From Trogon surrucura (taxonomy: Eukaryota > Chordata > Aves > Trogoniformes > Trogonidae): a DNA stretch of 64,000 nt. Each line of letters starts with the position of its first letter. Positions within the stretch are counted from its first letter, which is position 1. Made by a program: the position numbers and the translations under genes. Below the pieces are notes generated by a model, which made no database searches, was not told where the DNA came from, and saw nothing but the letters and a program-made list of their open reading frames with translations. The stretch lies in assembly GCA_020746105.1 (NCBI GenBank), contig CM036628.1, positions 20,789,191 to 20,853,190 of the forward strand, written 5' to 3'. Below, in pieces: positions 3,607-44,226 of the stretch.

Positions 3607-6236
3607 CTGTCGAGAGGAGGATGCGCAAGTGGGAGCCCACGGCGGTGGGGGTGACCACGGCCACCCGCCCGGGCCTCTCCCAGAGCTGACATGCCCTTAG
3701 CAGCGAGGAGCACGTGGCTCTTTGCAACCAGGGGTTTGGTGTCACCTCATGTGACCATGACGGAGCGGCTGTGGCCGAGGTTGGGCACGCTCTCTCCTGT
3801 TATCGCGCCTCAGGCAGGAATTTCCCACAGAAGGGCAGATGGGCTGGGACTGGGAATCTGTGCTACTGCTAAATCTAACAGGGACTGCAAGCCATGGCCC
3901 CGAGGCAGCGCTGGCTCCTCATCCCTCTGAAAACTCACCCCTGCCCTGCCATGGCTCCAGAGAGGAGCCGGCTGGGAAGCACCGCAGAGCCCGAGGGCTG
4001 CATTACGGGCAGGCAGCACCCAAAGGCTTGCCGGGAGAGGTGGGGTTTCCCTTTCTGACCCCTCCCTGGATGGATCCCATCCTGGAGAGCAGAGCCGATG
4101 GGCTCTCCCTTGCTTTTCCACCCGCATAGCTTGGCAAGAATGCCATCTGCCTTCCTGACCTCCTTGGGATATTAACAGCAAAGATTTTGCAGTGATCCCT
4201 GGGGTGCTCCCATCCAGCTGGGAACTGCCCATCCACCCCAGCTCATGAAATTAGAGGCCAAGTTAGAGCCTATTTGCAGCAGTTTCTCACCTATCCTGTG
4301 TCCCCAGAGACCCCAGGTGGAGGTTTGAGGTGCAGTAGTCGGGAGAGTTGATGAGATACACCAGATCTGTGTCTCTCACCGGCCTGGCGTCCAGTTCTTT
4401 GGGCATCAGCTGCTTCCTGGGCCCCACGAGCCGGTGGGTCACCCTGATGGCTGCCAGGTACTTGGACTTGAGGTCCGAAGCAATTTCATCCAGGTCTGGC
4501 AGTCCCTTCCAACAGGTCTTCACCGAGCAGGAGCCTGAAACCCCGTGGCATTTACACTTGGTGTCCAGGGAGTCACTCAGCACCTGCAGAGGACGGGAAA
4601 ACAGATGAATTTGCTTCTGCTTTTGCCCCGTGCCCACCCTACTGCTTTGCAAGAGCCTCCACGGGAAGTTTCCAGAGCTGAAAGAGCTCAGCTGCTTGCT
4701 GCCACCTTTAAATGGATATAATGGGGCAAAGAAGGACTCTGTTTCGTTCCCCTTGTGATAAGAACCTAACCTCGGGGAGCTCTTTGCTGCAGCTCCAGCT
4801 GGAGCTGGTGGCTTCCCGAGCTGACGCGCGTGCACGACAGCCACGTCCTCATCTGGGGAACACGAAAGTGCAAAACCCCACGGCTGTGGGCAGCGCTGGG
4901 GAGCCCAGCGGGCCTCTGCTTCCCACGGGAGGGGTGGAAATAAATATTAAAAGCGTGAAGTGGCAGATCCCTTGTGCCGGGGATGTTTGGGAGGTGGAGA
5001 GCAGTGGGGGGGATGTCTCTGCAAACACACTGACTCTGCTTTAACCGTTTCGTTACCTCCTGACTTTAAGCACAGCATGCAACCTGGAGCCTGCCACCTC
5101 GCATTTAAAGCGCCTCTGCCCCCCCAAGCTGAGGCGAGGGTGGGCTCCGTACCCACCTGCCTGCCCGCCGCGTTGTTGTGCAGATTCATCGCCTTGAGCG
5201 CTTGCGTCGCCACCGGCTTGCTGGATTTTAAGGGGCTGTCAGCGAAAGCGGCACCGAGCTGGAGGCCGTAGCCCAGGTTGTCCCCGCAGCCGCCCCACCT
5301 GAACTCCGGGCCGGGGACCTCGGAGGGGACGGAGCCGCAGGAGCAGAGGGGCAGCTCCCCCGAGGCGCAGGCTCGGGCGATGGAGCGCGCAGCGGCGGCG
5401 GCGGCCAGGGCGTGCACGAAGGCGGATTCGCGGGTTCCTGGGAAGAAGAGGGGGAGATGTCCTTCCTCCCTGCCCAGCCAAACACTCCTCTCAAAGACCT
5501 CACCGGGCAAATATGTCTGGTTTTCTTTTTCTTTTTTCTTGCAACATAATAAACCCAAGGACCACCATTTTTCTCGCACTGTGTTTTTAACCCGTGCCAC
5601 CCATTATATTACACTGCCAGCATACACCCTGTGTCCCCATCTCTCCTCCTTTTTTTTTTTTTATTTTGGAGCTTCTAGCAGCTGCTTTTGTTTGAATTGC
5701 AAGTTACCGCCTGCCATCTCCTGCAGGTCTGAGCTGCACAGGATTAATGCTGGCAAGCTTTCCCTAAAATGTGTATTTAAGGCAAAACTAGCATTAAAGT
5801 GCTGCTCCGTGGGGCAGAAAGGAGCACGGGCACTGTGGGATGAAGCATCTTTTACCTTTCAGCAGGTCAGGGCCCAAGCTGGGGGCTCGCTGGACGGAGG
5901 AGCAGTTCCACCTCATGTCTGCAAAGGTTTTCTGGCAGATGCTCTTGGTCTGACGGGCGGCCCGGACGATGCTCGCCATGACCTCCAAGTTCCTCCGGCA
6001 CATCTGGAACTGGTCCGGCACGAGCCCAGCGAGCAGGCGGCAGTGGTGGCTTTCATTCCAGGCCACCCCGCTGCCGGTGTCCGCCAGCCCGCTGCAGGGA
6101 GAGGATGGGTGTCAGGGGAGGCACCAGGGAGGGGGTGCATCCCCCCCAAACCCCGGGCCGTTACTCACAGCCACTGGATGGCCACGGAGAGCCCAAGGTG
6201 GCAGAGCAGGACGGCAGCGGCGATGGGGCAGCCCAT
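3432..6236 (-). CDS. WNT11B: WNT11B, secreted Wnt ligand (complete, 5 exons)
   Basis: Exons in transcript order are 6236-6169, 6091-5856, 5437-5157, 4583-4291 and 3606-3432. All junctions are GT-AG with matching phases (2,1,0,2). The product is 350 residues, close to the usual 354 of WNT11. A signal peptide (about 1-19, cleavage after SVA) precedes IQWLGL. The mature part has all 24 Wnt cysteines, the acylated hairpin CHGVSGSC with Ser211 as the expected palmitoleoylated residue, and a C-terminal cysteine-rich domain ending HVCK. N-glycosylation sequons are at N35, N85 and N296. The text [24 protein letters not shown] and the SPDYC and NLHNN segments match frog Wnt11b far better than WNT11, so I call the B paralogue. 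Family role: non-canonical (planar polarity, convergent extension) and maternal Wnt signalling through Frizzled. An alanine run (about residues 113-118) is unusual. Confidence 0.95.
4291..4583 (-). CDS. WNT11B: WNT11B exon 4
   Basis: It encodes residues 196-292, including [17 protein letters not shown], the lipid-acceptor hairpin, and the linker to the C-terminal domain. The acceptor is ctctgcag|GTG (phase 0) and the donor GATAG|GTGAGA leaves phase 2. Confidence 0.95.
5157..5437 (-). CDS. WNT11B: WNT11B exon 3
   Basis: It encodes residues 102-195, beginning [11 protein letters not shown], a near-invariant Wnt block, then the [12 protein letters not shown] segment, ending NNAAGRQ. The acceptor is ttcccag|GA and the donor CAG|GTGGGT. 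The ALAAAAAAR stretch replaces the less alanine-rich helix of other WNT11 proteins. Confidence 0.95.
5856..6091 (-). CDS. WNT11B: WNT11B exon 2
   Basis: It encodes residues 23-101 with the first four mature cysteines and the Wnt signature DMRWNCSS. The acceptor is ccctgcag|C (completing CTC) and the donor AAAG|GTAAAA leaves phase 1. The intron to exon 1 is only 77 bp. Confidence 0.95.
6169..6236 (-). CDS. WNT11B: WNT11B exon 1, signal peptide
   Basis: It encodes residues 1-22 ([19 protein letters not shown] then IQW), a hydrophobic signal peptide. The donor is CT|GTGAGT. ATG at 6236-6234 has a good context (GCC ATG G). A second in-frame ATG lies 12 codons upstream at 6272-6270, within a few bases of the expected cap site, so I prefer the downstream start. 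Confidence 0.88.
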
Positions 6237-12893: not shown

Positions 12894-12899
12894 TTTATT
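12894..12899 (-). terminator. LRRC32-like gene poly(A) signal
   Basis: On the minus strand this reads AATAAA (context ACTCAATAAAGAGAACG), 108 bp past the TAG stop of the LRRC32-like gene. It gives a short 3' UTR of about 130 nt that contains an (ATT)n microsatellite. Confidence 0.75.
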
Positions 12900-13007: not shown

Positions 13008-14984
13008 CTACACTTTGGTGATGCTGTCTGCTGGCTTCGCCTCGGCTGGCTCCTCTCTTGGGGGACTGTGGGGGAAGACCCTCACCCTTCTGAGTCCCCC
13101 ACACCCCGGCACCTTCTGCCCTTTCTTCAGAAGGCAGCAAGCCGCCACGCTGAGAAAGAAAAGGCTCATCACAACCACGAGCAGAGCCAGCAAGCCGGCG
13201 TCCTTGGGACGTGGGCAAAGCCACCGAGGGCTCTCAGCGATCTTGGCCGAGAAGTTCCTGCTCTCGTCGCGGTGGGTGCAGACGGCTTCGTCCAGGTCCC
13301 GCACGCCCACGCCGGCCGCCCGCAGCGCATCCAGCCAGGCCAGCGAGCAGCAGCCGAAGGGGTTTCCAGCGATGGACACGTCCTTCAGGCTGCCCGACCA
13401 GCTCGCCGGCCCCTCCAAGGCCAGCAGGTTGTTACTGCGGACGTCCAGGCTCTCCAGCGGCGAGCAGAGAAGACCCGCGGGCAAAAAGCTCAAACGATTG
13501 CCCGAGAGGTCCAAGATTTTGAGCGTGGTCAGGCACGGGAGCTCTGCCTCGCTGTCGTTCATCTGGTTGTCCCTCAGAGAGAGTTTCTGCAGGGAGGACT
13601 CCAAGCCCGCCAGGGCTTCCTTGGGCAGGAGCAAGTCCTTGTTCCCCGACAGGTCTAGGGAGAGCAGCGAGGTGCGGTTGAAGGCATAGGGCTGCAGCCT
13701 GGAGATGTTGTTCTTGCAAAGACTGAGGTGCTTCAGGTGAGGCACGTTGTAGAAGGGGGTGCAGGCACCTTCCGGGGCTGGCAGGCGAGAGACCCCTCCT
13801 GTACCGCCTCCCTGATCACTCCCCTGGCTCTCGCAAGGCTGGAGGCTGTTGGAGCCCAGATCCACTGTTTCCAGCTGAGGCAGAGAATTGAAAAACCAGC
13901 GTGGCAGCACGCGGAGGGCGTTGTCGTGGAGGTCCAGCGAGCGCACGGAGAGCACAGCACGCTCCTGGGCTTCCTGGACATCGCTGGGCTCCGTGCCGCC
14001 AGCGAGAGCCTCCCCGGCCACCTCCTGGAGACAGTTCCCAGCCAGGCTGAGGCTGTGCAGAGAGCCCAGGCTGTGGAAGAAGGCGAACGGGAACCACTGC
14101 AGGTGATTGTTGCTGAGATCCAAGTCGGTAACACGCGTCAGCCCGGCTGCGGCGTGCCGGGTCCTGTTAAACCTTGTCATCTCCTTGTAGGGCAGCACGA
14201 ACTCCCCCAGCTGGTGTGAGCCTGAGAGCAGGGAAGCTATGAGGTTGTGGGAGAGGTTTAGGTGTGTGAGATAATGGGCTTTGGGGAGCTCTGGGACAGA
14301 GAGGAGTCTGTTATGGCTCAAGTCGAGCACTTGAAGCAGGTAGGGCTCCGCTCCCTCCTCCTCCAAGAAGAAGAGCTCCAGGGCATTGTGGCTGAGGTTT
14401 AAAACTCGCAGCTGCGTGAGGCTGAAGCCTGAGATACAGTGGAGGGAATTCAAAGCCAAGCTCACCACCTCCAGCTCTTCCAAATCCTCAAAAGCTCCCT
14501 CCTCGATTTCCATGATGTAGTTGTCGCTGAGGTCGAGCTGGCGCAGCCGCGGCGTGCTCCTGAAGATGCCCGCCGGCAGGCTGGTCACCTTGTTTTTGGA
14601 GAGATCCAGCACCCTCAGCCTGGTGAGGTTGCTGACGTACCAGCCTGCCACGTGGCTCTCCAGGTTGTTTGCCGACAGGTCCAGGACCTCTATATTGCGG
14701 AGCAAGCGGAGGGCTTGCCCGTTAGCGTGGTAATTACGGTCCAAGCGGTTGGATCCCAGCAGGAGAGAGCGCAGCCCGGGCAGCTGGGCCAGGGTCGTGT
14801 CCGACACGGCTTCCAGCTGGTTGAAGCGCACGTCCAGGTACTCGAGCTGCCCAAACCCTGGCAGGTAGGTTCCCGACAGGTTTTGGATGAAGTTGTTGGA
14901 GAGCTCGAGGTACTTAACTCCTTGGCTGAGCTCCTTCGGGAACTTGCGCAGGCCGGCTCCTTTGCAAGACACCTTGGTGGGGCT
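13008..14984 (-). CDS. LRRC32-like exon 2 (ectodomain, membrane helix, tail)
   Basis: A single long exon encodes residues 41-698, beginning SPTKVSCKGAGLRKFPKEL and ending ITKV with TAG at 13010-13008. The frame is open without interruption. Nine or more N-X-S/T sequons lie in the ectodomain. A Gly/Ser-rich loop (about residues 424-448) interrupts the repeat array before the C-terminal block of repeats. Confidence 0.93.
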   Translation of the reverse strand, partial: SPTKVSCKGAGLRKFPKELSQGVKYLELSNNFIQNLSGTYLPGFGQLEYLDVRFNQLEAVSDTTLAQLPGLRSLLLGSNRLDRNYHANGQALRLLRNIEVLDLSANNLESHVAGWYVSNLTRLRVLDLSKNKVTSLPAGIFRSTPRLRQLDLSDNYIMEIEEGAFEDLEELEVVSLALNSLHCISGFSLTQLRVLNLSHNALELFFLEEEGAEPYLLQVLDLSHNRLLSVPELPKAHYLTHLNLSHNLIASLLSGSHQLGEFVLPYKEMTRFNRTRHAAAGLTRVTDLDLSNNHLQWFPFAFFHSLGSLHSLSLAGNCLQEVAGEALAGGTEPSDVQEAQERAVLSVRSLDLHDNALRVLPRWFFNSLPQLETVDLGSNSLQPCESQGSDQGGGTGGVSRLPAPEGACTPFYNVPHLKHLSLCKNNISRLQPYAFNRTSLLSLDLSGNKDLLLPKEALAGLESSLQKLSLRDNQMNDSEAELPCLTTLKILDLSGNRLSFLPAGLLCSPLESLDVRSNNLLALEGPASWSGSLKDVSIAGNPFGCCSLAWLDALRAAGVGVRDLDEAVCTHRDESRNFSAKIAESPRWLCPRPKDAGLLALLVVVMSLFFLSVAACCLLKKGQKVPGCGGLRRVRVFPHSPPREEPAEAKPADSITKV

Positions 14985-15838
14985 CTAGAGAGAGACAGGA
15001 GAAGCCGTCAGCACGGAAGGGGCTGCAAACCACAGCTCCAGCCAAGCCAGCTGCTGCCCAAGATAGACATGAGCAACATGAACACCTCTTCGCCTTCCCA
15101 AGCCCGGGATGGGAAGGAGTCAGACCACCAGAGCCACTGCTCAGACACAAGAAGTTTGACCCCAGGGTTAAAGTGGCCTCTCCGAGATGCTGCTAAGCTG
15201 TTTCTGATGGTCCAAGGAGAAGGCTCGGCCTCTGGCAAGCAAGCAAGCAAGCAAACTAGTGTAAGCCCTAAAGAGATGCAGCAGGCTGGTGGGGCAGACC
15301 CAGCTTCTGAGGGCGCTGGGACAAGCCAGGGACAGGTCTGGAGCATCCCTGTCCTGCCTGGGCAGAGGAAGGGCACCGTCCTGGTGGGCTCCACCTTCCC
15401 CCTCCCTCCAAACTGGCTTCCTCTGCCTTATTAACACCCGTGACATCTCCCTGAATCCCCAGGAGATGACCCCTGCGCTCCATCCTGCTTCTTAGCAAGC
15501 ATCTCGAGCTGCCACCCCTGTGGCAGGGACCGCTGGAAGGTGCCAGCAGCCTGGCAGAGACGTGGGAGCAGCTGGGTGCTGGGTGCCAGCTCGGAGACAA
15601 GAAAGGAGAGAACAGATCAAAGCTGGGAAGGTGAAAGAGATGGAGGTTGGAGGGAGACGAGAGCCGTGGGGAGGAGAAGATGCGCCCAGCCCGGGGGCTC
15701 CTCAGACAGCAGCCTTACCCGCTGGCACGGCGGGGGCCTGGCCTTCGCCTCCCCGCTTGACTGGGCTCTGAGAATGGAGGGGAGCAGCCAGAGCAGCAAG
15801 CATCCTCTTTCGGCCAGCCGATACTCAAACAAGAGCAT
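13008..15838 (-). CDS. LRRC32 (GARP)-like leucine-rich-repeat transmembrane protein
   Basis: There are two coding exons, 15838-15719 (40 codons) and 14984-13008, joined in phase 0 by a GTAAGG donor and a tctctag acceptor. The protein is 698 residues: signal peptide 1-25, N-cap PPCQRSPTKVSC (C38, C47), about 20 leucine-rich repeats to about 580, a C-cap starting NPFGCC (C585, C586, C609, C630), a membrane helix at about 637-659 and a 39-residue tail. LRRC32 loads latent TGF-beta at the cell surface. Cys223 (HCISGFSLTQLRVL) and Cys358 (AGNCLQ) align with GARP C211 and C350, which make disulfides with the TGF-beta propeptide; their spacing is 135 here against 139. The TLR-related LRRC33 is the alternative family member, but the CIS.FSL.QLRVL and LE.SL..L segments favour LRRC32. 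The orthologous LRRC32 itself is expected elsewhere, near WNT11. Confidence 0.9.
15237..15256. repeat. (CAAG)n microsatellite in the LRRC32-like intron
   Basis: Five tandem GCAA-type tetranucleotides in the 734-bp intron between the two coding exons. Confidence 0.7.
15719..15838 (-). CDS. LRRC32-like exon 1, signal peptide and N-cap start
   Basis: ATG at 15838-15836 (context CCAAC ATG C) opens MLLFEYRLAERGCLLLWLLP, a signal peptide, then SILRAQSSGEAKARPPPCQR. The donor is CGG|GTAAGG. The join gives PPPCQR-SPTKVSC, which matches the LRRC32 pattern of two N-cap cysteines about nine residues apart. No other ATG lies between this one and the TATA-like element in this frame. Confidence 0.85.

Positions 15839-21012: not shown

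Positions 21013-44226
<23,214 letters not shown>

Follow-up and report, generated by a model that had tools for sequence, protein, structure and literature searches.

Whether a leucine-rich repeat (LRR) gene of the bird Trogon surrucura encodes a further tether for latent TGF-beta is the question raised by a 64,000-nucleotide stretch of contig C15 (the window). In PMC9411592 two membrane LRR proteins, GARP (LRRC32) and LRRC33 (NRROS), are named as anchors of latent TGF-beta, and PMC2235866 names Lrrc33 as the paralogue of Lrrc32. The gene lies on the reverse strand, with the following features (window positions):

15719..15838, reverse strand: coding exon A (40 residues, phase 0, donor GTAAGG), holding the start codon, the signal peptide (by eye) and the first part of the N-cap
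13008..14984, reverse strand: coding exon B (658 residues and the stop), holding the LRR ectodomain with C223 and C358, the C-cap, the transmembrane helix, the cytoplasmic tail and the stop codon
13011..13130, reverse strand: tail after the transmembrane helix, 40 residues, ending in SITKV
12894..12899, reverse strand: AATAAA, a plausible polyadenylation signal about 110 bases 3' of the stop

The acceptor end of exon B reads CTCTCTAG and supplies the AG acceptor of a phase 0 intron with a GT donor. Joined, the two exons encode 698 residues in an intact frame with no internal stops. The LRR content is recognized by Pfam LRR_8 (192 bits), a signal peptide is predicted by eye at the N-terminus from exon A, and hydropathy peaks at residues 641-659 (value 2.85), indicating a single C-terminal transmembrane helix. 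From its sequence, the predicted product is most likely a type I membrane protein. The AATAAA hexamer is weak on its own, since the window contains 79 of them.

A search of the T. surrucura genome with the window protein returns 71 matches, LRR genes being common. After the protein itself, the best are a gene at C1:1819610 (285.8 bits, 35% identity) and one at C12:18157998 (111.6 bits, 37%, in pieces), and the next gene scores 55.8 bits. Comparison with solved structures identifies the C1 gene as the GARP ortholog (500 bits to human GARP, 248 to LRRC33) and the C12 gene as the LRRC33 ortholog (604 bits to LRRC33, 252 to human GARP). The window protein scores 242-249 bits to six GARP sequences and 208 to LRRC33; these seven (208-249 bits) head the best 60 of 175 solved-protein matches, and the next scores 110 bits. 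Because the same genome holds separate GARP and LRRC33 orthologs, the window gene is a paralogue and not GARP, in agreement with the preliminary description of this DNA, which had called it LRRC32-like. In a six-sequence alignment that includes the window protein, the T. surrucura GARP and LRRC33, human GARP and the GARP chain 8rex_E, the three paralogues of this genome are mutually 34.0, 31.7 and 30.8% identical and thus nearly equidistant. A maximum likelihood tree of 540 gap-free columns, unrooted and without an outgroup, recovers a bird and mammal GARP clade (support 99.2/100) and a bird and mammal LRRC33 clade (100/100), both of which exclude the window protein. The split therefore predates the divergence of T. 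surrucura from mammals.

The genomic neighborhood points to the same early origin. The neighbors of the LRR gene within the window are:

4290..4946, reverse strand: WNT11-like exon in an open frame, probably WNT11B; downstream neighbor on the same strand as the LRR gene, across a gap of about 8 kb
21016..21336, reverse strand: TNF-domain exon of EDA (ectodysplasin A) in an open frame; upstream neighbor, 180 bits to solved ectodysplasin A
22997..23329, reverse strand: probable EDA middle frame, by eye, without a Pfam match
26947..27267, reverse strand: collagen-repeat exon in an open frame, probably of the same EDA gene

The EDA exon at 21016..21336 matches Pfam TNF at 20.7 bits, below the cut-off of 23. 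The best other genome match of the WNT11-like exon is at C1:2151095 (73%; next 59%), 330 kb from the GARP ortholog, and order and strand are the same on C1 and C15, with the LRR gene first and the WNT11-like gene after it. The DLG-specific domain PF10608, which we take to mark DLG genes, is matched only on C12, C1 and C15, the contigs of LRRC33, GARP and the window gene, at distances of 3.9, 5.9 and 8.7 Mb, respectively. The C15 match, at E 8e-4 and with one stop inside its frame, is weak, and the co-occurrence with GARP on C1 says less because that contig spans 222 Mb (C12, 27 Mb; C15, 22 Mb). As background we likewise take WNT11B and DLG1-3 as the gene names, and 3q29, 11q and Xq13 as the positions in human. 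The parallel duplication looked for in a 2R ohnologue is thus found in a WNT11-like pair on C1 and C15 and in DLG-type matches on C1, C12 and C15 (the last weak). The window gene is very probably a third early-vertebrate ohnologue of LRRC32 and LRRC33, beside WNT11B. Mammals, to judge from WNT11B, probably have no counterpart, having lost it together with that gene.

Elsewhere in the window, open frames resembling remnants of a CR1-type LINE reverse transcriptase were seen by eye at 41723-42392 (forward strand), and short tandem peptide repeats, probably minisatellites, at 27414-27927 (reverse strand) and 39001-39360 (forward strand).

The case for tethering is carried by two cysteines of the ectodomain:

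14436..14438, reverse strand: TGT codon of C223, by alignment the equivalent of LRRC33 Cys201 and GARP C211
14031..14033, reverse strand: TGT codon of C358, by alignment the equivalent of LRRC33 Cys345 and GARP C350

We take the linker cysteines of human GARP to be C211 and C350. Those of LRRC33 are numbered C201 and C345 (PMC9411592). In the alignment, C223 (context NSLHCISGFSLTQLRVL) and C358 (SLAGNCLQEV) fall opposite the cysteines of CISDFSLQQLRVL and SRNCLRTF, respectively, in human GARP; alignment and codons place both exactly at the GARP linker positions, where they had been put before. Their spacing had been called nearly that of GARP, and it is: 135 residues, versus 139 in human GARP, 140 in the T. 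surrucura GARP and 144 in LRRC33. Between the N-cap and the C-cap, 24 alignment columns hold a cysteine in any of the six family sequences. Eight are cysteine throughout, namely six cap or insert positions and the two linkers (each 6/6), and the remaining 16 vary. One of the varying columns is that of window C524, a cysteine common to the window protein and three GARP sequences, while the last C-cap cysteine, window C630, is out of register with that of the other sequences. Judging by position, the six invariant cap and insert cysteines presumably have a structural disulfide role. When a 35-residue peptide around C223 is searched genome-wide with an E limit of 10, four places match. Three are the window and the loci of GARP and LRRC33; the fourth match is partial (E 0.72).

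The weight of the cysteine evidence rests on this six-sequence pattern, because the chance of keeping both cysteines from 34% identity alone is about 0.12 (hand calculation). The preliminary description had stressed their survival in a diverged paralogue. Both are indeed kept at about 34% identity, but this is nothing special, as neither varies among the three family members. The window gene therefore adds a third member to the known membrane LRR kind; it is a further gene of the anchor family, but not the fourth, new type of milieu molecule that had been proposed.

The docking surface offers contact-residue evidence that is mixed. In LRRC33, changing Tyr174 to Arg drastically reduces complex formation (PMC9411592). 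This position is Tyr in the window protein and in the T. surrucura LRRC33, and Val or Ile in GARP. The Phe196 and Tyr217 positions are Leu and His in the window protein, Tyr and Ser in the T. surrucura LRRC33, and Arg and Cys in human GARP. The window protein therefore keeps one of the three LRRC33 contact residues, and human GARP, a proven anchor, keeps none. Invariant columns number 106 of 597 in five sequences (8rex GARP left out). A permutation test for conserved patches found its densest stretches (255-284, 227-271 and 223-282) not significant (p 0.58, 0.16 and 0.21), and the same holds with Leu and Asn removed (p 0.33-0.45). Single-sequence structure prediction of the ectodomain reached a mean pLDDT of 50.1 (637 residues) and 53.5 (334 residues), too poor for use.

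With regard to cargo, the T. surrucura TGFB2 (LSTCSTLD) and TGFB3 (LSSCTTLD) retain the N-terminal prodomain cysteine. A six-frame screen for [ST]CxTxD covered 15 prodomain loci (some of the genome's 26 prodomain exon matches lie outside these 15) and found the motif within a prodomain in TGFB2 and TGFB3 only; a further match, in locus L021, falls outside any prodomain reading. TGFB1 was not found in the genome with a typed human prodomain fragment, which gave two matches (TGFB3-like on C10 and TGFB2-like on C2, 53-54% identical), nor with a typed mature domain, for which the same TGFB2 and TGFB3 loci were best (68-74%), followed by relatives at 30-45%. The gene may be absent from the assembly or may have been missed, and no gene loss is claimed; it is only because TGFB1 was not found in the assembly that TGFB2 and TGFB3 are named here as partners. 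Among the human anchors, LRRC33 presents TGF-beta1 only and GARP all three isoforms (PMC9411592). A myostatin-like prodomain exon at C8:41278100-41279000 has two cysteines near its N-terminus (CNAC), is without the TGFB-type motif, and is a possible alternative cargo.

Two alternatives to the tethering model are highly improbable. The window gene could be a diverged bird GARP ortholog, as might be read from GARP being the best match of its product among solved structures. However, the tree leaves the protein out of the GARP clade, and the gene at C1:1819610 is a closer GARP ortholog. It has a WNT11-like gene nearby, which is the setting of chicken LRRC32 (chromosome 1, 195-196 Mb, with WNT11, UVRAG and THAP12; gene list in PMC10976558). 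The C1 ortholog and the tree rule this reading out, barring a misassembled C1 locus, and we regard it as very improbable. That C223 and C358 pair with each other is next to inconceivable, and no evidence in its favor was found. Pattern matching assigns them to LRR units that begin at residues 211 and 349, a distance of five rungs; at the usual LRR rung spacing of about 5 angstrom, this amounts to some 25 angstrom, which makes an internal disulfide implausible. Moreover, in the LRRC33 complex the equivalent Cys201 and Cys345 bond Cys4 of the two prodomains (PMC9411592). Nor is burial of the two cysteines an argument against tethering, although it had been put forward as a refutation: in the same complex, one prodomain chain sends its N-terminal region into the hydrophobic core, and this helps form the bond to Cys201 (PMC9411592).

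Two further alternatives weigh more. The fold and the cysteines may have been kept for a different cargo, either another TGF-beta superfamily member or a secreted protein of no relation to it whose N-terminal cysteine is free. The non-covalent contact residues of the window protein differ from those of both GARP and LRRC33, and it is in the non-covalent surface that the specificity of LRRC33 resides (PMC9411592); the number of prodomain exon matches in the genome and the near-N-terminal cysteines of the myostatin-like exon add to this. Against it stands the restriction of the prodomain [ST]CxTxD motif to TGFB2 and TGFB3 among the loci screened, and we consider another cargo unlikely, though a serious contender. 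The protein may instead be an inherited relic, a folded LRR membrane protein whose cysteines have no partner and which is kept for another role, such as adhesion or trafficking. This would fit the lack of enrichment for a docking patch, as well as a tail that is longer than, and unlike, those of GARP and LRRC33. However, outside the caps and the insert the cysteine columns of this family mostly vary (16 columns), and the two linkers do not; we rate a relic quite unlikely.

The tethering model, that of a third GARP/LRRC33-family member whose product holds a TGF-beta-family proprotein at the cell surface, is therefore the reading that we favor, and on the sequence evidence it is likely to be correct. 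The gene is intact and keeps both tether cysteines, so some cells probably carry a TGF-beta precursor tethered by its product. We infer the following course of events. The LRR solenoid would dock a dimeric TGF-beta-family proprotein in the secretory pathway, C223 and C358 would each become disulfide-linked to the N-terminal cysteine of one of the two prodomains, and the latent cytokine would then stay at the cell surface until integrins activate it. This scheme is putative in its covalent docking, in its partner, and in its steps of surface display and activation.

The tail of the window protein, unlike the short GARP tail, ends in ITKV, which resembles a class I PDZ ligand; by a rough estimate, a few per cent of proteins would have an end of this kind by chance. 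It is speculation that ITKV links the tail to the cell cortex. In the most extended version of the model, a third receptor, which birds retained and mammals lost along with WNT11B, would covalently present latent TGF-beta2 or TGF-beta3, and its ITKV tail would tie the load to the cortex, so that the cell would resist integrin pulling, unlike with GARP or LRRC33. Taken as a whole, this version is a long shot.

If a third anchor does exist, the ancestral vertebrate set was larger than the present mammalian one, and mammals probably lost one member. TGF-beta presentation in birds, and perhaps in frogs and fish, could then not be read from mammals. Among the papers listed in a literature search with scant coverage of subscription journals, none, judged by title and abstract opening, described a third gene of the LRRC32 family; the databases may well contain an automatic 'LRRC32-like' entry for the window gene.

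Compared with the known anchors, the window protein shares with GARP the LRR ectodomain, both linkers, the cap and insert cysteines and the transmembrane helix, and its gene likewise has a WNT11-family gene downstream on the same strand. It differs from GARP in sequence (34-36% identity), in its separate locus and in its tail, which has about 40 residues versus about 15 (by eye) in the T. surrucura GARP. Of the lone cysteines in human GARP it is missing four, at the columns of window 239, 350, 369 and 527, and it has Tyr at the Tyr174 position where GARP has Val or Ile. With LRRC33 it shares both linker cysteines and that same Tyr, whereas overall identity is 32-34%, Phe196 and Tyr217 are changed, and the LRRC33 gene lies on another contig, also with a DLG-type match. 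LTBP1-type tethers of latent TGF-beta are matrix proteins of unrelated fold. With LTBP1, which tethers latent TGF-beta through disulfides (PMC9411592), the window protein has nothing in common but this proposed function, and there is no family relation. Set beside GARP and LRRC33, the window protein would represent a natural comparison for isoform specificity, with the same cysteines on a different non-covalent surface.
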